NCBI GenBank assembly: GCA_011032825.1
Contig: JAADJZ010000006.1
Coordinates: 186,001-250,000 of the forward strand
Direction of reading: 5' to 3'
Source of the DNA: Massariosphaeria phaeospora
Taxonomy: Eukaryota > Ascomycota > Dothideomycetes > Pleosporales
DNA: 64,000 nt
Position numbers and translations under genes: made by a program
The notes under the pieces: generated by a model
Databases searched by the model: none
Seen by the model: only the letters and a program-made list of their open reading frames with translations
Told to the model about the DNA's origin: nothing
Shown here: positions 49,347 through 62,100 of the stretch, in pieces
Layout: each line of letters begins with the position of its first letter
Numbering within the stretch: the stretch's first letter is position 1

Positions 49347-49517
49347 TCAATCATCGCGCTCCGGCACGATGCGCCCGTTCCGCAGCTTCATACGACCGAT
49401 TGGCTTCGCCTCCGGACGGCGATGCGGACGTAGTTGAACTGACCGGACAAACACAATATCATCCTGCTCAACATCCTCTTCTTCAACTGGCTCTGGCTTC
49501 ACCTCCGCATGGCGATT
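49347..49517 (-). pseudogene. In-frame open extension beyond the stop of CGH-family gene 1
   Basis: Directly after the TGA of the gene at 49518-50234, the same frame stays open for 56 more codons to a TGA at 49347. The extension repeats the acidic-hydrophobic motif that ends the main protein: EDVMFVRSVNL before the stop, then DDIVFVRSVQL within the extension, each followed by an Arg/His-rich, Glu-Ala/Val-Lys-Pro stretch. It closes with a short MKLRNGRIVPERDD tail. This looks like the ancestral C-terminus, cut off by a nonsense change (a CGA to TGA change would fit the Arg found at the matching place in the second copy). Confidence 0.55.
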
Positions 49518-50234
49518 TCATAGGTTGACTGACCGGACGAACATAACATCTTCTTGCTCTGGTTCTTGCTCAGGAGCTTTCCGCTTTCGCTTTGAAAGTC
49601 GACGAGACGACCCCGCTTGTTCAACTGGCTCTTTGTCGAGAGCTTCCCTCTTTCGCTTCGAAGGTCGAATAGATGGCTCCGGATCAGGGACAGGATTAGG
49701 GTCAATGTCCTCGAACATGATCGCGCCGCTACGGGGAATTCCAACATCGAAAGGGTGGCCGGGCTTCCCTGGCTTATAGCCCTTGACAGGCTCGCCGTCC
49801 TCGTCACAAGGGACAGACGTAATGTTCTCAGCGATATACGTTTTGCGTACAGGTTTCTTGATCTTTTTTGCGTACTCCTCGCGGAGCTCCTGGCGCCATT
49901 CCTCTTCGTCAGTTTTCTGAGCAATCAGTTTCTTCTTCTCCTTTTTGAACTTTTCCTCGCTTTCCATCTCAATGCATGCTTGGCAGTGAAAGTCGGCGGC
50001 GCCTTTGGTATCGATAGGGTGCTTCGAAGTCGCGACATGGTGACAGTTGGGCGCGCAGACTTCGTTCTCCTTAGCAGTGACTACACGATGGCCACACTTT
50101 AGAGTGTGCTCGTTCGTCGCGGATGGGTTCAGGCAGGGATCGGACTTCGAATCAGGTATCGTTTGCGGGTACGTGACGGTCGCTCGTATGTCAACTTCGC
50201 GTCGCCGCTTCCCCATCGCTTTCGTGCGAGCCAT
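49518..50234 (-). CDS. CGH-motif small zinc-binding-type protein, member 1
   Basis: Single exon, 238 residues from the ATG at 50234 (an upstream in-frame codon extends it by 10). I do not recognise a named family. It shares with four neighbours the pattern H-T-L-K-C-G-H (43-49), C60-x3-C64, F-H-C84-x2-C87. Downstream is a Lys/Glu-rich coil (~90-125), then a segment with Gly/Pro (GKPGHPFDVGIPRSGAIMFED) and a basic/acidic tail (SKRKRKAPEQEPEQEDVMFV) that has nuclear-localisation-like and SUMO-interacting-like features. Divergently transcribed from member 2, with 492 bases between the starts. It lacks the C-terminal helix motif shared by members 2-4 and is probably truncated by a premature stop. 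Confidence 0.75.
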   Translation of the reverse strand: MARTKAMGKRRREVDIRATVTYPQTIPDSKSDPCLNPSATNEHTLKCGHRVVTAKENEVCAPNCHHVATSKHPIDTKGAADFHCQACIEMESEEKFKKEKKKLIAQKTDEEEWRQELREEYAKKIKKPVRKTYIAENITSVPCDEDGEPVKGYKPGKPGHPFDVGIPRSGAIMFEDIDPNPVPDPEPSIRPSKRKREALDKEPVEQAGSSRRLSKRKRKAPEQEPEQEDVMFVRSVNL

Positions 50235-50726
50235 GATAGCGATAGCGGGGTTTGATAACAACAAGAGATGATGGCGTTGGCCTGGTTACAGCTGAAATCA
50301 ATGGTCGATAGAACTTCAGCGAAACGTCGTCGTAGGAGGAGAAAGTAGGCTTGGAAAGAGACTGGTGGGAAGAGTTGGAGCGCGAAAGCATCTTTTATAA
50401 TACTACTCGAGGAGTTGCTGTCGCTACAATAAGACACAATGGGTAGTACGGCACAATAGCTGGTGAGTTGGCATTGTGCGGTCACGGTGCTGGGAATGAA
50501 AGGACCTCTTCAGAGCACGGTGAATACCACTTGCGCATACCTTCGGCCTCGAATTCTCTCCGCAATCAACTGTACGAAAGCATGGCGCCATTCTAATATT
50601 TTCTCCAATCCTGTACTTTCTTTGCACCTATCCTCCACTACTATTTCCTCTTGTACACAACCTCGAAAATTAGCAACGGTATACCAGTATTCACTCCTGA
50701 AACGACCTAGTACCAATATTACTACA
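50235..50726. promoter_or_regulatory. Divergent promoter region between CGH members 1 and 2
   Basis: The two starts face away from one another here. The member-2 side (50460-50726) stays open in frame without a stop but lacks conserved content, so it is treated as leader. Confidence 0.35.
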
Positions 50727-51821
50727 ATGTTCTCACGCCAATCAGCAGTGACTTCAAGGCCGAGCTGGGAATCTCCACTCCGCTTTATCCCACGACCACT
50801 CATCCTCCAAATCTTGGAGAAGTCGCGCAAGTCAAGAGCCGATTCAGAACTGAAGCAAGACGTCGACAATTTATTTACTCTGACTGCGTCGCTGAAGCGT
50901 GCGAGCGTGTCTCCAGATATGGAAATACATCCGGAGGATGGCAGCATCAACACCTCTCAGGCACACGCACAGGAAGAGGAGGAGAACCCCGACCAATACG
51001 GTACTGCTTGCGACAACATGTTCACTCACTATCATGATCTCATCTGCGGTCACACAATCACGACGTCAATCACATCGCCCGACATCGTCCACCTTCTAAA
51101 AGCCCCGTGCTCAAGCGCCTGCGTCCGTTACCGATACTTGAAAAGCACCGGCCTCGACATGTCCTGCTTCTCCAATATATCCCACGTTGCATTCGTCTGC
51201 CCAGCCTGCGTAGAGGCCTATATCCGAGAGAACTACTACGCCGTCGACTGGCAGTACCGAGAAACAGGCTTCGTACCGTCGAAATACAACGAAACAAACA
51301 TCCGCGTATGGACACACCGTGCAGTATTGAGGCTGGTGGACAGCGGGTTGCGAATGGCGCAAGGCACAACAGGTGTGTTTAGCATCGTAATGGCAGAAAA
51401 GTATCCAGCATTGTTAAAACCGGAGCATTTCGATCCGGCTTTCAATCCGCTCGTGACCGCGGACCCGCCGATGGTGGGTGGGCAGGGCGCGTCCTGGCGA
51501 TACCGAGAAGGGGACCCAGGACGAAATCGCTCGCGCTCACCAAGGAGGGAACACGATGACGAAGGACTGGATGAGAAAGCGCAGATTCGGAAGAAGTATC
51601 GCCAGCGGTCTCCTGTTTGTAGGACTCTGGAGGACCCGGTAATGGATGGGCTTGTCGAACGGCTCTACGATACTAAGATTGGTCTGCCTAAGGATGATGA
51701 CTCGATGGTCGAACTGCTCAAGGGATTGGGGGATATCATGACTCGAGAGAAGACAGGAGAGGAGCTTCTGCATCCAGATAATGGCGAGGTCGGTGTTATC
51801 GATACCGAGGAAGAGCTCTGA
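50727..51821 (+). CDS. CGH-motif small zinc-binding-type protein, member 2
   Basis: Single exon. The ATG at 50727 gives 364 residues; an in-frame ATG at 50463 would add 88 residues without recognisable content. The shared pattern is HDLICGH (103-109), C128-x3-C132 and F-V-C158-x2-C161, with a longer loop between the first two parts than in members 1, 3 and 4. A tail rich in Arg/Ser/Asp (GRNRSRSPRRE) follows, then the shared motif LYDTKIGLPKDDDSM-VELLKGLGDIM. The end GEVGVIDTEEEL has the V-x-V-I plus acidic pattern of a SUMO-interacting motif. Function unknown; the cysteine/histidine set could bind one zinc ion or more. Confidence 0.8.
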   Translation: MFSRQSAVTSRPSWESPLRFIPRPLILQILEKSRKSRADSELKQDVDNLFTLTASLKRASVSPDMEIHPEDGSINTSQAHAQEEEENPDQYGTACDNMFTHYHDLICGHTITTSITSPDIVHLLKAPCSSACVRYRYLKSTGLDMSCFSNISHVAFVCPACVEAYIRENYYAVDWQYRETGFVPSKYNETNIRVWTHRAVLRLVDSGLRMAQGTTGVFSIVMAEKYPALLKPEHFDPAFNPLVTADPPMVGGQGASWRYREGDPGRNRSRSPRREHDDEGLDEKAQIRKKYRQRSPVCRTLEDPVMDGLVERLYDTKIGLPKDDDSMVELLKGLGDIMTREKTGEELLHPDNGEVGVIDTEEEL

Positions 51822-52642
51822 TACCCAGGTTCATGAAATTGGCGCGACTGGAGCGGTAAGGAGCGTGGGTACATCAATACCTGACGACACTCAATTACTG
51901 GTGTCCTGTCAACATCCCCAATCTTTCAATTTCGGTATCGGACTTTTCCTCATATTCTGAATTTCGGTTTTTTTGCTCTGTTTCAAGTGTAAACAAATGA
52001 GCGGCTCCGTTTGAGTTGCTCGCGCAAATTTTCTTTGTTTCAAGCGTCTTCTCATGAGTCTACAAAAGCTAGCATCACAACGATTTCTAATTCATCTCCA
52101 TCCGTTAATATGTGTTTCTTGACAGCTCGCTACTGTACTGCCATGCTGGGTAACTCCACGACAACGCAAGGCGAAGCAATTGGACAGTCGACTGACAGGT
52201 CGGATCTTGTAGCCTCTCATTCTTTATGGATTCATGCTGTGTAACTCAATTCTAGAGTTTTTCGTCGACCTCAAAGCGATGACGCTAATTACCCTTGAAC
52301 TAGCTCATCAAATCATTCACAGGAAGTGCTGTCATGGGAAATCATACCCCGGCCAATTCACACTTTCGGGCGAAGGAATCGCCCCACCAACGATCCTTCA
52401 ACCATTCACAATGCTGAATTCGACCGTGATAGACTTCAATGGAAAGGGTATCCCCGCCGGGTAGCGAGCCGCGCCTGACCCTGATCCTTGAGATATGTCA
52501 TAGCGGTGGCGGGAGATAGGTATTTCACCACACCACCGGCCATCGTAGCTCATATTTTAATCTCCATAAAAACGCACCACCACAACCACTCCGAAAAGCC
52601 ACAACTTCAGAGTCAGCTTGTTAGACACCACTCACTAGCAAC
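51822..52642. other. Intergenic region, no gene seen
   Basis: About 820 bases between members 2 and 3 with no supported gene. The last ~100 bases are AC/CT-rich, as expected for a fungal leader. Confidence 0.4.
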
Positions 52643-53350
52643 ATGGCTAACATCGGCCCAGATCAAAGCTACCTCCGAAGCCAATACACCCCCTGCAATG
52701 GCAACAGCTGCTACCACGACCTCCAATGTGGCCACCGAGTCCGCACAACCTACAACGACAACTGCGGCTCGAACTGCGTGTCCGAACTCCCCAAATACAG
52801 AAAAGCCAACACTACTCGGCGCTACGTCCTCGGCCGACCCTTCGTCTGCACCGAGTGTCTCGTCGCCCAAGTCAAAGCCGAACTCGTCAAGGACAAAGCC
52901 ACCAACCTTGACACAAGCGACGCAAGTACCAAAGCCACCGACGACGACAAGCTGTTCCACGCCATGGTCGAGCGATGGATCCTCCTCCTCAAAGACAACC
53001 AAGTTCGCGCCAGCGACCGAGCCGCCAAAGTCGAGCCCATGCTCCAGTTCTTCGCCGATTTCCCCGAGGCGCAAGGAGACTTATTCGCGCCTCCTTCGCC
53101 TGGCCGTAAGCTGAAAAGGCCAAGTGGAAGGACACCGGCCCGGAATCTGCATCGGAAGAAGGCCCGTACGAATGACAAGAAGGGTAAGGAGAAAGCGCCG
53201 GAAATGGATGACCTGGCGGGGCATCTGGCGGATACGAAGGTCGGATTGGAGAAGGAGAATGAGGCGATGAGGATTGTGAGGGAGGTCTTGGGCGCTTTGG
53301 CGCTGGATGGGAAGGGGGGCAAGAAGATTGGGGATCGGGAGAAGGGTTAG
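52643..53350 (+). CDS. CGH-motif small zinc-binding-type protein, member 3
   Basis: Single exon, 235 residues from the ATG at 52643. The shared pattern is compact: HDLQCGH (25-31), C41-x3-C45 (CGSNC), F-V-C69-x2-C72, with extra Cys at 18 and 23 before it. Then comes a helical Lys/Asp-rich part, a basic stretch (GRKLKRPSGRTPARNLHRKKAR, likely nuclear localisation), and the C-terminal motif LADTKVGLEKENEAM-RIVREVLGALAL that matches members 2 and 4. No known domain. It is the clearest minimal version of the family and a good query for searches. Confidence 0.82.
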   Translation: MANIGPDQSYLRSQYTPCNGNSCYHDLQCGHRVRTTYNDNCGSNCVSELPKYRKANTTRRYVLGRPFVCTECLVAQVKAELVKDKATNLDTSDASTKATDDDKLFHAMVERWILLLKDNQVRASDRAAKVEPMLQFFADFPEAQGDLFAPPSPGRKLKRPSGRTPARNLHRKKARTNDKKGKEKAPEMDDLAGHLADTKVGLEKENEAMRIVREVLGALALDGKGGKKIGDREKG

Positions 53351-53765
53351 ATGGCCATGGGAGGGAATGACCTGGGTGATGTGAGTTGAGTCATTACTTG
53401 GGTCGCTTGGGGTTACAATGCGAGCAGGATAGATGATTCAACACTAGACGAGTCTACGCACAATGATGATCCTGAATATTGATCGTAAGTGTTTAGTGTG
53501 GTTGAGATGTGCAGAATGCAAGTTTGAAATTCCAAAGAAATTCATACCGAGTCCAAAGCGCGTCCGACTTGGCCACTTGTGGCTACTACTATTTACTGCT
53601 CACTTCTGAAGTGTCGCCCACTAAATCTTTTCACTAATCACATCTCTTAAGCCACCATACTGTGTCCCTCTAAGGGTTATTCTTGTCATATCAATGTTGA
53701 CAAAGCACTTGTTATCCCAGTAGTTTCTCTCCTTCTCGTTGTAAAGCCAGCACAGCCTACAGCAA
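53351..53765. other. Intergenic region between convergent genes
   Basis: About 415 bases between the member-3 stop and the E2-like stop; no coding sequence seen. Confidence 0.4.
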
Positions 53766-54242
53766 TCATTCCGCAAACCGGTCCGTCCACTCCATCGCAA
53801 ACCGGGCCGTCCAATCTACCGCCGTCCGTTCGTAAATCGAACGCCTGATCTGGTACTCCAGCGCGATCTCCGGCACAATCGCATTATGCGGATCAGGATC
53901 CGCCAAAAACGCCTGCAGACTCAGCAAGATTTTCGATATTGTCAAGACTGGACACCAGTCCGGTCCGAGAATGTTCAAGCTGATGAATCCGCTATCGCTG
54001 TCGATGTTGGGGTGGTAGATCTTGGTGGCAAATGTTACGGTTGGTGGCGATAGCGGGTAGTCTTGGGGATATTGGATGTTGAGATTGAATGTGCCACCCG
54101 CGAATGGTGAGACGTGCGGACCTTGGATTGACGCGGTCCAGTTGAAGATGTCGTTGTCTTTTAGGTGCGCGGAACATCCGTCGATGGGGTCCGAGCGGAG
54201 GTGGTTTAGCTCTTGTCGGAGTCGTCTCTGCGTTCGTGACAT
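53766..54242 (-). CDS. UBE2D/Ubc4-like E2 fold protein with Ser at the catalytic Cys position
   Basis: Single exon, 158 residues, starting at the ATG that gives MSRTQRRLRQEL (54242). The core fits UBC4/5 (UBE2D) E2 enzymes: FNWTASIQGP, SPFAGGTFNLNIQYP, YPLSPPTVTFATKIYHPN (HPN 77-79), SKILLSLQAFLADPDPHNAIVPEIA. Where E2s have the active Cys (G-S-I-C-L-D-I-L), this protein reads G-F-I-S-L-N-I-L: Ser88, codon AGC at 53979-53981. A Cys97 stands nine residues later, where E2s have Ser in the W-S-P motif. One extra residue separates HPN from the active position. The tail carries a duplicated segment (VDWTARFA, EWTDRFAE) from a 24-bp tandem duplication. It probably cannot form a ubiquitin thioester; it may act as a UEV-like adaptor or be drifting. 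Flanked by CGH-motif genes. Confidence 0.85.
   Translation of the reverse strand: MSRTQRRLRQELNHLRSDPIDGCSAHLKDNDIFNWTASIQGPHVSPFAGGTFNLNIQYPQDYPLSPPTVTFATKIYHPNIDSDSGFISLNILGPDWCPVLTISKILLSLQAFLADPDPHNAIVPEIALEYQIRRSIYERTAVDWTARFAMEWTDRFAE
53771..53818. repeat. 24-bp tandem duplication in E2-like tail
   Basis: Copies 53771-53794 and 53795-53818 align with only a few changes (unit core CGCAAACCGG-CCGTCCA). In frame, it duplicates the last helix segment of the E2 fold. Confidence 0.8.
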
Positions 54243-55070
54243 GGCTACTGTATCGACGAATGATAAAAAGCTAGCTTGCAGACTTGAAGTAGAGAATATT
54301 CGGTGTCTATACGGGATTGATGTTTGAAATTCCTGCACTTGGTAAGTATATCGGGGGTATTTGACGCAGGCGGGAACCGTAAATACTCTCCAAACTCCTT
54401 TTGACTAGCATGAGACTGAACGAGAGAGGTTATTTGTTGTGCAGTTATGAAAGAGTAAGGAACTCATTGCAGGAAAATGTGCGAGTTAGTTGATTTGAGC
54501 CGATACGTGACTAGGCTACAGCCCCGCACACGTGCAGGGATTACGAGACCAGGATACGCAACCGTGTTTGTGTTGACATGCTAATAATCTGTCTCTTCTG
54601 TGTCAAAAGTCTAAGATATGAAAAATGAACCTCACCGTATACCGAGGTCGCCAATGTCATATACCAAGATATTTCCTGATTTTACTCTCATTCCCATAAT
54701 GAACTCGACTAGTCTGAGCTTCATAGGCGTCTTTCAAAGACTAGATAACACTCGAAATCCTCCTGACTTGAAAGTATCAATCGTGTTACCTGTCTCGACA
54801 TTAGTCACTTGTCTCGAGCCTAGTCACGTGTTGCAAGCTTATCCATTTGTCCGACAGAATGAAAGGACCAGCTAGAACTTCCAAGAGTGGAATTTTCGGA
54901 GTGGCCGAGCATTGTGCTTTTCCAGTAATGTGCTTGTGACTCAACAATACAGTTGCGAATCCTCCAAGTGCCACCTAGTGAATAATAAAAGGGGTTTCTC
55001 CCCCTCACGATAAATTCCAACCAGAAAAGGCGGAAGAAAAAGCACCCCTGCTAACCGTAAAAGTCCCACC
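54243..55070. other. Intergenic region between E2-like gene and CGH member 4
   Basis: Divergent promoter region of ~830 bases. No coding content was recognised. An A/T-rich AATAATAAAAGGG element lies about 90 bases before the member-4 start and could act as a TATA-like site. Confidence 0.4.
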
Positions 55071-55958
55071 ATGAATCTTGATGCTATGCAGAAAACTTCC
55101 AGCCTGCAACAGTCGCAAGGTTCATGCAAACCACCGACGTCTCGCTACCATGAACTGGACTGTGGACATTGTGTGTACACACTAATTCCCAAGACATGTG
55201 GAAAGAACTGTAAGGTCGCTCGACAAGATCGTCGCAGGTTCGCTTGTCCGCATTGCCTTACTAAATACGTTCGGAACGCATACGACATGGGTATCATGAA
55301 TTTTGAACTTAGTCGGATTACCATGCAGGGAATTGAGTCGGAGGAGCCCACAGCATTGGAAATAAAGCAAAATAAGGAGGCAACAGCGCTAATCCACTAC
55401 AAGCGGCTCAAGCCCTTGGTGGTCAAACACATATCAAAAAAGATGGGCTCGAGCCGGCGTGTCTCTATAGCGGTGCCCAACTTGGATCCTATCTCACAGT
55501 CCTACTTCGAGTTTCCTGACGCCGAGGTTCGGGGTCGCAAAATGGGCCTGAACGTCTACGAGATCACGGACAATGACGTCGATCCGAAAGTGCTGCGAGG
55601 TCATCTGTGCCAGAACCCTACTCCGTACAAGGACCCGGATGTCGATAAGGTGTTCGAAGATCACGGCAACATGCTATTCGATCGCTTGGTCAAGAACCGC
55701 TCGCGAAGCCGCAGTCCCTCGCCAGATCGACATACAAGCCACCACGAATACCGACAGCGTGATGAGCCGCGCGGGTACGAGTCTCGCAAGTCGGGAACTC
55801 GAGAGATGTCTGCGAAACGCGCCGCAACCCAGTTAGTTGGTGCTCGAGTTTGGAGGCCGAAGGATGAACATGTTACTGCGCGGATAGTGCGAGAGGTGCT
55901 TGAAGAAATAGCTCTGCGCAAACTTGAGGAGCACAAAGCCGCTATTGTCCATTGTTAG
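55071..55958 (+). CDS. CGH-motif small zinc-binding-type protein, member 4
   Basis: Single exon, 295 residues from the ATG at 55071. The shared pattern is HELDCGH (27-33), C43-x3-C47 (CGKNC), F-A-C59-x2-C62. After it come a helical region, an acidic/aromatic part (YFEFPDAEVRGRK), an Arg/Ser-rich low-complexity segment (NRSRSRSPSPDRH) like that in member 2, and a C-terminal RPKDEHVTARIVREVLEEIAL that aligns with the ends of members 2 and 3. Four of its five conserved Cys/His elements keep the same spacing as member 3. Function unknown. Confidence 0.8.
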   Translation: MNLDAMQKTSSLQQSQGSCKPPTSRYHELDCGHCVYTLIPKTCGKNCKVARQDRRRFACPHCLTKYVRNAYDMGIMNFELSRITMQGIESEEPTALEIKQNKEATALIHYKRLKPLVVKHISKKMGSSRRVSIAVPNLDPISQSYFEFPDAEVRGRKMGLNVYEITDNDVDPKVLRGHLCQNPTPYKDPDVDKVFEDHGNMLFDRLVKNRSRSRSPSPDRHTSHHEYRQRDEPRGYESRKSGTREMSAKRAATQLVGARVWRPKDEHVTARIVREVLEEIALRKLEEHKAAIVHC

Positions 55959-56645
55959 ACAAGACTTTGGTGTGTTAGACACCCGAAGTTCGGAGCTGAC
56001 AATATTCTACAATGAAATAAATTAGTTCCATATAATATCTTTTGTGTATGTATATATATACTGTGACATGAACTGACAGTCAATCAAGCAGGGTAATCAA
56101 AGAGTGTTGACTGACATGAACCTGTACGAACATAAGAATTGGACTTATGGCGATCAAACTAATGCTGCGTCATTGTGGTGTATAACCTCTATATAACAGA
56201 GGATGGTTGCAATTTCAAAGTAATTGAGTCTGTGGTAAGACCTTCAATGGACAAAGGCGAGATCTGATGGAGAGTTTTCTACCCGACAAAGCGATGCCAA
56301 TTCGGTGATAGTGGCGATGTCTTCGAACCCAGCTTATTGAACTGACTGCTTCTTGCTAGCATGGATCTGACCTTGGTTTATCATGTGTGCAGGTGATAAG
56401 GCCTGAAGGTTGGGAAACAAGGTTGGGGACCGGGCCCTCGGAACTTGATCGGCACGTAAGAACTCCACCAGATGCGCCCTTATTGGCTAACCACGACGTT
56501 CCTCAATAGTTACCCCTCATCCCTTCCTCGGGTAAACTTATTCCTTTAATATCGGCGGTACTCTTGACACCAACAATCATTCCATCAACCAAATTCTTGT
56601 ATTCATCTCATTCGATTCCCCCAAATCCGACTGGCATCTTTCGCA
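55959..56645. other. Intergenic region, no gene seen
   Basis: About 690 AT-richer bases with a short TATATATATA tract near 56050. Includes the nitrilase promoter. Confidence 0.4.
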
Positions 56646-57911
56646 ATGGTGAAGAAACTCATACTCGCATCGGCACAAAGCCGAACGCTATCTACAACAG
56701 CGGAAACGCTTTGCGCACTCGAAAGTACTACAAAATCTGCAGCAGAGCAAGGCATCGACGTCATTCTGTTTCCCGAGGCATACCTCGGCGGGTATCCACG
56801 GACTTGTACGTTCGGTAGTGTTGTTGGTGGCCGATCGTCCGAAGGCCGCGACCAGTTTCTTCGGTACTTCCATGAAGCTGTGGATCTAGGCGACACTCCA
56901 CAAGGCGCAGGAAATGAGTGGGTAGACAAGAGCTTGGAACTACCGAGGGGCAAGGAGTACCGTGGTGATGGGACCCGCGAGGAACTGGAAAGAATCGCGA
57001 GAGACACAGGGGTCTTCGTTGTGACCGGGCTTGTTGAACGCTGCGCCGGGACGCTATACTGTGCCGTTGTGTATGTCTGTCCAAAATATGGAGTCTTAGG
57101 CAAAAGGAGGAAGGTGATGCCCACCGGCTCTGAACGTATGATTTGGGGTCAAGGTTCAGCATCAACTCTTCGGGCAGTCACGACGGAGATCAAAGGAGTG
57201 AAGCTGTGTATGGCTGCCGCAATCTGCTGGGAGAACTACATGCCGCTTCTCCGACAGTCTTTGTATTCGCAGAATGTAAATTTGTATTTCGCGCCAACGG
57301 CTGATGCGCGGGATACTTGGGCGGCGCTAATGAGGACGGTCGCGTGCGAGGGACGTTGCTTCGTGGTTTCTGCAAATCAATGTGTGCAGAAAAAGCATCT
57401 ACCGGAGTGGATTACAGGGAACGAATCAGGAACGCACAAGGTCTCGCATCAAGATAAACCAACACCGGATTCCGTCGAAAAGGCTCATGGACAGCGCAGA
57501 AGAAGAAGCACGATCACGCTAACAGAAGAAAAGCACGAGATCTGCTGGCCTGTCGTCAAAGAAAATGGGAACAGTGACACGCCAGAATCGAAAGGTGATG
57601 GCTCAGTGACCGAGGAAGATTCCACTGTAAACTCCAAGGCGCAGGACTCCTTGCTCGACTCAAAATCTATAGCGGGGAACCCGGAGGGAGAGGAGTTTGT
57701 TTGCCGCGGCGGCTCATGTATCATCTCACCGATGGGAGAGGTCATCGCCGGACCACTATGGGAGATTGAAGATGGAGGTCTATTAGTTACCGAGGTCGAT
57801 TTTGAGGATTGCGAAAGGGGACGCTTGGATATGGATGTGGCCGGCAGCTATTCTAGAATGGATACGTTCCATCTGATAGTCGACGGATTGGACCTGAACC
57901 CCCCTCCCTGA
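56646..57911 (+). CDS. Nitrilase-family enzyme with long internal linker
   Basis: Single exon, 421 residues. The nitrilase catalytic residues are visible: Glu44 in [11 protein letters not shown], Lys156 in KRRKVMPT, and Cys194 in [10 protein letters not shown], with the supporting [11 protein letters not shown] and [14 protein letters not shown] blocks. Nitrilases turn nitriles into carboxylic acids and ammonia, or in some branches make amides; the substrate is unknown. Residues ~260-349 are a Ser/Asp/Glu/Lys-rich disordered insertion between ANQCVQKK and the closing C-terminal part [22 protein letters not shown]. That makes the protein longer than typical fungal nitrilases (~330-350 residues). 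No lesion was found, and the start at 56646 precedes the first beta strand. Its place inside the CGH cluster may be accidental. Confidence 0.92.
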
Positions 57912-58168
57912 GCTCTGCCTATATCCGACAGTAAACTACATTCGTCATGTCATGGCACCGGGCCTTCTGACCATAGTAACAATCGAGTGTTTCTACTACA
58001 TTGTGCACATCATGAGAGATAATGTGCTACTACAACGATTTCGTGGGGCCCAAGGTTCACACACAATGTGCAGACAAGCGCAGTGCATAAAGACCAGTCC
58101 GGCATATTTTACTGCACAAAGGCACACGCATAGCAAACCACAAGACGCTTCCAACCATCCCCTAAACT

Positions 58169-58732
58169 ATGGAGACCCGTGGAACCGTCGCTGTTAACAC
58201 AACGTGCGCAGTCGTCTGCCGACCAGGTGAACACCTTCTCTCATGCGGCCATCTCACGCTAACCTCCCTCCAGCCCTCCAAAGCGCAATCCAAATGCGCC
58301 CCAAACTGCATGGGCTACCCAGTCGCACCCCCGTCACCACCTCCGTCCAGCCTCAAACCCGAGCCCAAGCGCAAGCACACATACCCGAAGCCCACACCCC
58401 TCTTCTTCTGCCAGACCTGCCAGGAGATAACTCTCACGACTACATGCAACGTCTTCCCGCCGCCTAGCCGCTATTTTGGTAGTGCCGCCCCATTCAACGA
58501 AGCGCTGAAGGATCTGGCGAAGACGAAGGCGAAAGTGTTGGGCATGCGCTTATGTGAGCCTGCTCGCGCGGGGAAATTTCGATTCGATCGATTTGATGAT
58601 CACTTGACCTGGATTGAAGGCATTGAAACTACGCTGGGGGTGTGGGATGTCTGGGATAAGACCGAAGCTTTAGGTAAAGCTGTTCAACAGATAGAACAGA
58701 TGAAGTTGGACTACACGGCTAAAGCTGACTAG
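58169..58732 (+). CDS. CGH-motif small zinc-binding-type protein, member 5
   Basis: Single exon, 187 residues from the ATG at 58169. The shared pattern is HLLSCGH (22-28), C43-x3-C47 (CAPNC, as in member 1) and F-F-C81-x2-C84; a Pro/Lys-rich loop (residues ~50-77) separates the second and third parts. Two more Cys (13, 17) precede the motif. The rest is a helical domain (SAAPFNEALKDLAKTKAKVLGMRL... and WDKTEALGKAVQQIEQMKLDY) without the C-terminal motif of members 2-4. It is the shortest member and lies 257 bases after the nitrilase, same strand. Function unknown. Confidence 0.78.
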   Translation: METRGTVAVNTTCAVVCRPGEHLLSCGHLTLTSLQPSKAQSKCAPNCMGYPVAPPSPPPSSLKPEPKRKHTYPKPTPLFFCQTCQEITLTTTCNVFPPPSRYFGSAAPFNEALKDLAKTKAKVLGMRLCEPARAGKFRFDRFDDHLTWIEGIETTLGVWDVWDKTEALGKAVQQIEQMKLDYTAKAD

Positions 58733-59169: not shown

Positions 59170-62100
59170 TCATTGTACGTCAACCATGACAACTCCATCA
59201 CTATTGGGTTGAGCTGCATCCTCGATACTGACAATGGCTTGGACCATGACAGTAGCTTCTTTCAACTCTTTGTACTCATCCAGGTCTTTGAGCAGGACCG
59301 ATCTCGACGACAACAGCGCATCTTCGTATGGACGGTTATGGTTTCTCTCGTCCGCGAACGCCATGTCTTCCTTGTAGGATATGAGACCTGGATGAAGGCA
59401 GAATTTGACTTGAGATACGTCCGAAAAGGCATCTTCAGAATTTTCGTCATGGACTGCGTTCAATAGCGCTGGGAAGAAGGCGGAATGTGGCTGTGGTACT
59501 ACCACTTTCCAGGCATCGCCATTGATGAGTATTTCCATCTTCCAATTCATCAGCTCCACGAGGATAGCGGCCAATCGCTCAACGAGGTTCTCATCTAGCT
59601 GGAAGCCTTCGTGGAAAACACTGGCAATGATCGTGGATTCCTTTTGTGACATCTCTGCGACCTTGTGCTCGAAGCCCTTGCTCTTAACAAGGTTATTAGT
59701 GGCTAGGTGGTCAATTAAGCGCACCTCTCCTAAACCGTCTGTTCATGTGTTAACGTAGATCCCTAGCGAGTCGCTCACCCAGGCGAGTCGCTCACCTGCG
59801 CCAAGCCTTCTCTCTACTACCTACTTCTTTCTCTCTACCACCTTCTCCCTGGCACCTAGTACAGGTCAAGATAACTCAAATAACTCAGAATTGACTGCTG
59901 CATCTAACCTACACGTGCGCCTATCGTGCCCTAGCTCGCCGCAGCGTCCACAGCGTCTTGAAGGCTAGCCGCCCTGATTACCAGCATCACCACGAGCTCT
60001 CTTCTTCGCCTTCTTCCCATCACTGCGCGCCTCAAACGCCCTAAGGGCTGTTAAGCGCACGCCCTCTTCAACTGTGAGAGTACCCTCCTGCTGCACACGC
60101 TTTCTCTTGTGCGATCTCCGTCGCGAGGAAGCCTCGTTGGCAGCTTGAAGTTCAGCGACTTGGTTGCGCAGTAGCAGCACAGAAGCTGCTGCATACTCAG
60201 CGCCTTTAGAGAGCTTTGCAAGAGCATCAACTATTGAAGTAGGAGAGCTATCTACATGCCTTTGAATCTTCTCTCGAATCAGCGTTGATTGCGACCCAAA
60301 TTCTAGGGTATTGCTTGGGGTTCGAGACTGCCAGGGACCGTCCTCTACGGTAGGTAACAGTGGGGTGCGGAGCCGCACGTCAAGCTTCGAGATCACCGCC
60401 TCTAGGTCGAATGGAACTAATCCAGCACCTCGAAAGCCTCCTTGGATATTGCTCTCTGTAATAGAGGCGTTGTAAGCGCCAATAAAGCATGGCAGGAACT
60501 CAAGTTTGGTGATGTGGTTGATCCGGTTGCGCATCAGATCCTCGGCTTGGCGGCCGTACGCCTTCTTCAAAGGCGCAAAACAGCCAACATCAAGAGGCTG
60601 CAGGAGGTGCGACGAGTGAGGAAGCATGCAGAGGGTAATAATGCTGTTATCCTTGCAGTACTGCTAGAAGGCGAGCGAGTCATGGCTCTCATGGCCGTCG
60701 ATGAAGAGTAAACGTACTGTCCCAACAGTACGTCTCTTTGTATGGGCGTCAAAGTGCTTCAACCACTCTAGACCCAGCTCGTTGTTTGTCCAGCCGTTCT
60801 CAGAGACTACGATAACCCAGTCGCGAGGTAGGCCATCCTCCTCGTACCAGGCAGAGAGGTGGTTCTTGCCCTGGAAGATGATAAAGGGTGGGATAGCCCA
60901 CCCCATCGCGTTGACGCCCTGTACCACCGTCGTCCACTCTCTGTTACCCTGCTGCACCGTTTTCGGCCGTCCTCGACGCTCTGAGCTAGTGATTACTGCA
61001 CTCGTTGAGATCTGGCCCATTATGAAGCCCGTCTCATCAAAGTTGTAGGTGTCCTCGTCTACTACGCCGTACTTGGCTTTCATGTTCGCTACAAGCCTGA
61101 ACTAGTCGGCTACAAGCTTAGGATCCTCACAGAGAGCTCTTTTATAGTCGTACTTTCGATTGAACTTGATCCAGAGCTTAGGGTGACGCCTGACGAACGA
61201 CGTAACCCAGTTCTTTCCAACTAGTGGCTGGCCCCGCGCTGCGAGCAGTAGGTTAGCCTTATCCTCTAACCCAGCAGGCCTGAGTGGAAAGCCTCGCGCG
61301 TCAAGGTCGACGGCATACTCCTTGATCACTGTGTTCTCTGTTGGACGGAGCCTCATTGAGTTGGGTGTGCAATCGCGTCGTGGGAGTTTTCCAGCAAGCC
61401 GATCGCTTAGTGTCTTTTGAGGAACGTTGTAGATTGATGCAGCGCGTCGCTAAGAGAGTGTCGCGTCGCGTTGGATAGCCTGGATCGCAAGCTGTATTTG
61501 GCTCTCGTTTGAAGCGCGTGGCGCGTTGTGTGGTTGAGCCATCGCGTAGTAGAGAGAAGGGAGCAGGCGTTGGTGGGGGGCTTGGCGCAGGTGAGCGACT
61601 CGCCTGGGTGAGCGACTCGCCAGGGATCTACGTTAACACTTTCAAGTTTAACAACAAGTATCTGGACTTACGCCTCATTGCAATTGCCTCCCACATATAT
61701 TTCGTACGGGATGATTCCTCCTCTTCATCATGCCAATTGGTATCGATGATATGCGTGCAGATATACTCGGCGATCTTTGCGATTCTGGTATGATGTGTAG
61801 CCCGATCCTGCATCTTGTCCGCCACCAGAGAATCTAGTTTCTTCCACATCTGAGTCCACGCAAGAATAGCTGTGGCATCATCAAACTTCGGTGGGAAATA
61901 TCCCGATTTCCTTGGCAGTTGATATGTGCCCAAGAGTTGATGGAGGTTCTGCTGATTCTGAGAGGCTACCTTATCCTTTTCGTTCACCCTGTTCGACATG
62001 TGGATAATCTGTTCTCCATGGCTGTCTCTGGTCCTGCGCATTTCAGTGTCTTGATCCCCGAGGCGATCCAGAGCCCGATGCAGTAATGTCTCTTTCTTCT

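Follow-up and report, generated by a model that had tools for sequence, protein, structure and literature searches.

A cluster of diverged genes in Massariosphaeria phaeospora encodes an uncatalogued cysteine/histidine domain with a putative two-zinc site

Results

Genes and surroundings of the cluster

The window examined here is a stretch of 64,000 nucleotides of Massariosphaeria phaeospora DNA, equivalent to positions 186001-250000 of contig C48 in a genome of 42.08 Mb and 51 contigs. An ORF check of the window gave frames that are open from ATG to stop for all five genes proposed in the original prediction, and the description of these genes as intronless holds for them as open frames, known here from the DNA alone. 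Gene 1 (49518-50234, reverse strand) encodes 238 residues, in which the shared domain (49974-50150, reverse strand, taken from 14 residues before H-x-L to the last C-x2-C) is followed by a tail rich in Lys and Arg that contains an internal repeat. Tandem repeats at 49401-49681 cover the 3' part of this gene, the unit at 49431-49469 lying beyond the stop codon, and through repeat turnover the C-terminus of gene 1 may be changing in length. Gene 2 (50727-51821, forward strand) encodes 364 residues and combines the domain (50991-51209, forward strand), where SSAC stands in place of xxNC, with an RSRSP stretch. An alternative upstream in-frame ATG at 50496 would give a protein of 441 residues; the extra 77 residues (50496-50727) may be 5' untranslated sequence. 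Gene 3 (52643-53350, forward strand, 235 residues) carries the domain at 52673-52858 on the forward strand together with both further modules described below, and of all members it stands nearest to the foreign relatives. Gene 4 (55071-55958, forward strand, 295 residues) has the shortest domain (55107-55256, forward strand), an RSRS stretch and a C-terminus that is helical in the model, while gene 5 (58169-58732, forward strand, 187 residues) shows the domain only (58190-58420, forward strand). The third-position codon G+C of the five genes, 0.56-0.72, was similar to the 0.53-0.78 measured for eight further window frames.

Two other genes are interspersed with these. An intact UBC4/5-type E2 homologue of 158 residues (53766-54242, reverse strand; PF00179, E 2.6e-40) is located between genes 3 and 4 and has Ser at the position of the catalytic Cys (HPNIDSDSGFISLNIL); a copy closer to the canonical E2, on contig C1 near 492 kb, keeps the catalytic Cys. 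A nitrilase-type CN_hydrolase gene (56646-57911, forward strand; PF00795, E 5.7e-32) lies between genes 4 and 5. Further along, a pogo-type DDE element at 59747-61639 has inverted ends of approximately 95 bp that are 86% identical, and holds a DDE_1 fragment at 59965-60627. Copia- and hAT-like frames were also recognised by eye in the region.

The Cys/His motif

A shared order of Cys and His residues in five frames was the basis of the original prediction. The strict form of this motif (H-x-L-x-CGH-x3-T ... C-x3-C ... F-x-C-x2-C) gave five matches in the six frames of the window, all inside the five ORFs, and none when the window was shuffled 20 times under a first-order Markov model; C-G-H alone was found 15 times against a shuffle mean of 8.7. 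The middle motif reads C-x2-[N/A]-C, that is C-x3-C. In the alignment of the five genes the invariant residues of the domain, numbered as in gene 1, were C34, H43, L45, C47, G48, H49, T53, C60, C64, F82, C84 and C87, with further invariant columns at M1, P158, P187 and D200.

One conserved residue, C34 in gene 1, had gone unlisted in the original prediction. It corresponds to an extra Cys that lies 6-14 positions before the H of H-x-L in 15 of 18 domain copies, whereas outside the domain Cys occurs in 278 of 2959 overlapping windows of 14 residues (9.4%), and this Cys raises the number of potential Cys/His ligands to up to eight. The H, C, H and two Cys pairs were present in 18 of 18 copies, a count that is partly by construction as the copies were cut out with the pattern itself. 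The upstream Cys is lacking in three copies, each of the second-domain type and with a Cys 1-6 residues beyond the N-C of the middle motif. The relative P0004 has His where gene 3 has the upstream Cys, Cys at two other upstream places, and a Cys 9 residues after N-C. None of the other 14 domain copies contains Cys within 9 residues after N-C, a limit that was picked after the data were seen. This complementary pattern is the trace expected if a ligand had changed places within a single site, but may reflect only two independent events. Two variants of C-G-H were found (C-S-H, and C-PGN-H in P0006) and one variant of the N before C. C-PGN-H and a linker that varies from 11 to 79 residues both change the spacing around fixed Cys/His positions, as would be expected of metal ligands.

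Family members in the genome and in relatives

The DNA pattern for H-x-L-x-C-G-H gave 29 genome matches compared to 10 for a reversed control. Translation around the matches revealed three further members: one of 565 residues at C48:264363-266060, one of 351 residues with two domains at C48:514400-515455, and a frame of 275 residues at C22:126215-127039 (L043). A fourth, of 249 residues with C-S-H for C-G-H (C48:282587-283336), came to light when gene 3 was used as a protein query and the retrieved DNA was read; a copia-like frame, identified by eye, ends beside it at C48:282344. The two-domain member (L067 4400-5455) is arranged head to head with a gene at L067 5806-7158 whose frame resembles that of a RING-H2 protein, and the genome scan gave a PF00097 match at C48:515926-516069. 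The nine genes and ten domains found in this genome are a lower bound, from searches that were not exhaustive. Seven of the nine genes lie within 48 kb of C48; of the remaining two, one is elsewhere on C48 and the other on C22.

Of three protein searches for relatives, the first returned the query alone, the second P0004 and the products of three window genes, and the third P0004, gene 3, P0005 and P0006-P0011. P0005 (BDV95DRAFT_592243, Massariosphaeria phaeospora, 'hypothetical protein') is identical over 351 residues to the two-domain protein of C48 and belongs to the same family; it showed no match to the middle or C-terminal module described below at E 1 or less. P0006 (BU26DRAFT_586498) and P0008 (BU26DRAFT_586500), both from Trematosphaeria pertusa, are annotated as 'hypothetical protein', have near-adjacent numbers and are each listed on a contig of 579,156 bases. 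The domain is common to both, and their middle and C-terminal modules contributed to the module profiles used below. Massariosphaeria phaeospora and Trematosphaeria pertusa, the source of all named members, both belong to the Pleosporales. Single comparison of gene 3 with P0004 by BLASTP gave 31% identity (E 2e-29), and P0010 matched the two-domain gene with 41% identity over residues 16-269 (E 1.8e-42), so that the two-domain architecture is not confined to Massariosphaeria phaeospora. The lineage-specific expansion put forward in the original prediction is upheld in part: the cluster has expanded here to seven genes in 48 kb, but the family itself predates this species, with relatives in Trematosphaeria pertusa and in P0004, P0007 and P0009-P0011.

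The homology of the members was examined using a profile of 8 foreign domain copies, run over 5479 frames of at least 40 residues, many of them overlapping, from the window and the collected loci. The profile recovered all nine known genes of this genome (five in the window and four further) with E values from 1.7e-27 to 1.2e-3: 2e-9 for gene 1, 5.8e-6 for gene 2, 8.9e-20 for gene 3, 3.3e-9 for gene 4 and 1e-5 for gene 5, and 1.7e-27, 2.2e-12, 4.4e-8 and 1.2e-3 for the members at C48:514k, C48:283k, C22 and C48:264k, respectively. Among non-members the lowest E was 0.047, and among the RING loci L001-L008 it was 1.4. As a foreign-only profile matches all five window genes (E 9e-20 to 1e-5), the five genes are homologous, and their reading as diverged paralogues is supported. 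The foreign proteins had themselves been retrieved with profiles containing members from this genome; P0006-P0011 came from profile A8, which was made without genes 1, 2, 4 and 5, and the test is therefore close to independent for those four.

Further modules and linkers

Profiles built from five foreign proteins identified two further modules. The middle module is present in gene 3 at 52955-53077 on the forward strand (KVEPMLQFFADFPEAQ and the preceding residues; E 1e-7) and in gene 4 at 55449-55541 on the forward strand (E 1.1e-4). The C-terminal module is present in gene 3 at 53201-53323 on the forward strand (DDLAGHLADTKVGLEKENEA..VREVL; E 3e-17), the only window gene in which it has a good E value; a possible remnant in gene 2 (51642-51701, forward strand) is marginal at E 0.16, and gene 4 gave no match to this module at E 1 or less. 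Also at the C-terminus of gene 2, a sub-threshold Pfam match to DUF1484 (E 0.0021, 18.9 of 21.2 bits) is counted against the explanation preferred below. In the module-profile search genes 1 and 5 matched neither module and show the domain alone, and the other members of this genome showed no module match at E 1 or less among the lines listed. The sequence outside the motif had been described as nearly unalignable, which is correct only in part: compared with the foreign relatives, genes 3 and 4 keep further modules and gene 2 has a marginal trace.

Judged by eye, the linkers are basic and in some members RS-rich, which points to proteins that are intracellular and probably nuclear. Of 16 proteins, 7 contain SRSP-type stretches and 9, gene 3 among them, do not; any link to splicing would therefore not extend to the whole family.

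Comparison with known families

No Pfam model scored above its cut-off for the five full proteins, 11 domain rows or five further relatives, a search that covers MYND as well as the RING, U-box, AN1 and ZZ families named for comparison in the original prediction. The precomputed annotation of P0006-P0011, the only source consulted for these, gave no Pfam entry ('-' for all). The five proteins had no match in NCBIfam, a prokaryote library, and none was found among PDB sequences; the earlier statement that no known family has this signature is borne out in these libraries. The domain family is genuine, and uncatalogued in the libraries searched.

The RING finger (PF00097 and related models) resembles the domain in having up to eight Cys/His positions, with C-x-H followed by two Cys pairs and a final C-x2-C. 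The domain differs in its first ligand pair, which is not C-x2-C: a single Cys stands upstream of H in 15 of 18 copies and none in 3, followed by H-x3-C. It also differs in its middle C-x3-C, in the long and variable distance from H to the next conserved Cys, and in the models in its helix, which starts at the last Cys pair. RING domains have 2-3 residues between H and the next Cys, compared to 9-21 in the 11 rows. None of the 11 rows scored above the curated cut-off of a RING Pfam model, the best being PF14570 in one row (E 0.032), and of the 71 PF00097 matches listed for the genome, by a search that scores best candidates only, none falls in the window. A profile of eight RING domains from this genome could be aligned to the domain over 8 columns around C-G-H, with a probability of 1.4% and an E of 0.036. 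By its first ligand pair, its spacing and its scores with the Pfam models, the domain is not a C3HC4/C3H2C3 RING finger, although it might still act like one. The original description of a Cys/His site in treble-clef-like order and lacking a full C3HC4 set is supported.

Structure models

The structures of two paralogues were predicted using AlphaFold2. The model of gene 3 (6 rows) had a mean pLDDT of 52.3, with strands at 24-27 and 32-34 around C-G-H and a helix at 70-87 at the last C-x2-C, and that of gene 4 (10 rows) a mean pLDDT of 58.2, with strands at 26-28 and 34-36 and a helix at 60-72 in the equivalent places. Confidence over the domain was about 41-80 in both models and both are weak; the structure prediction suggested earlier gave a common order of hairpin, turn and helix in different paralogues at this level of confidence. 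Treble-clef zinc sites are formed by a hairpin, a knuckle and a Cys pair at a helix start. As far as the two weak models go, the order of secondary-structure elements would agree with such a site, the domain differing from treble-clef sites in general in its additional H-x-L-x-C-G-H with the upstream Cys.

Discussion

The genes are probably best explained as an old, diverged cluster that encodes an uncatalogued, treble-clef-like interaction domain, predicted to bind two zinc ions, in intracellular and probably nuclear proteins. The defining order would be C-x(5-13)-H-x-L-x-C-G-H ... C-x2-N-C ... F-x-C-x2-C, with two zinc ions most likely held by up to eight Cys/His side chains. In the putative site C-G-H would occupy the turn of a beta-hairpin and C-x3-C would form a knuckle, and a helix would begin at the last C-x2-C. 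In gene 3 and its foreign relatives, the fuller members, the domain would be followed by a middle module that is helical and, beyond a basic linker, by a short module at the C-terminus; SRSP-type stretches stand within this linker in several relatives. Gene number probably rose by old duplication in a region that contains transposons, with copies such as genes 1 and 5 retaining the domain alone. That the domain is a protein- or RNA-contacting adaptor in these likely nuclear proteins can be proposed only tentatively. Points that count against the explanation as a whole are the low confidence of both models, the three domain copies lacking the upstream Cys, the 9 of 16 proteins with no SRSP-type stretch, the good E value of the C-terminal module in gene 3 alone among the window genes, and the judgement of nuclear location by eye.

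Three other explanations were considered. A degenerate RING-type E3 ligase domain, with the E2-like gene of the cluster among its partner E2 enzymes, is unlikely. This reading would assign C-G-H to ligands 3 and 4, C-x3-C to 5 and 6, and C-x2-C to 7 and 8, and both the RING order of C-x-H and two Cys pairs and the UBC4/5-type homologue at 53766-54242 between genes 3 and 4 favour it; however, that neighbouring E2 copy is without its catalytic Cys, the first pair and the 9-21 residues from H to the next Cys depart from RING, the Pfam RING models stayed below cut-off with no PF00097 in the window among the 71 matches listed, and the RING-profile comparison extended over only 8 columns (probability 1.4%, E 0.036). 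A similarly low probability is given to a nucleic-acid-binding zinc domain, for example one derived from a transposon and domesticated. The basic linkers would suit such a function, as would the nearby transposons, including the copia-like frame seen by eye beside the C48:282587 member, but transposase and DNA-binding Pfam models all remained below cut-off, and nothing indicates a repeated element, with only nine genes found and no DNA similarity between the window copies.

Tandem copies that have diverged strongly, in a transposon-bearing region (pogo-type, and copia- and hAT-like by eye), are also what fast-evolving self/non-self or host-interaction proteins might leave, the role envisaged in the original prediction. 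Here this is decidedly unlikely: no HET, NACHT or other incompatibility domain was among the Pfam matches, no secretion signal was seen by eye, the double-domain member is well conserved in P0010 (41%, residues 16-269), and the linkers, by eye, look nuclear. None of the present results favours a role in host interaction or self/non-self recognition, and the linkers suggest intracellular, probably nuclear proteins instead.

A more far-reaching proposal is that the domain represents a new class of two-zinc fold, neither RING nor a known treble clef, and that it forms a linked Pleosporales regulatory system with the E2 homologue. This is very improbable; if true, the zinc proteins would recruit partners and the E2-like protein would be a ubiquitin-binding, non-transferring subunit.

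Under the preferred explanation of an uncatalogued two-zinc interaction domain, the Cys/His position that is gained in some copies and lost in others in complementary fashion would allow the metal-holding residues to be tested in naturally occurring variants. The domain is coherent and recurring, predicted to be of a zinc-binding type and absent from the Pfam copy searched, and is carried by at least nine genes in one fungus with relatives elsewhere, and its profile allows 'hypothetical proteins' of related fungi to be grouped and tested.
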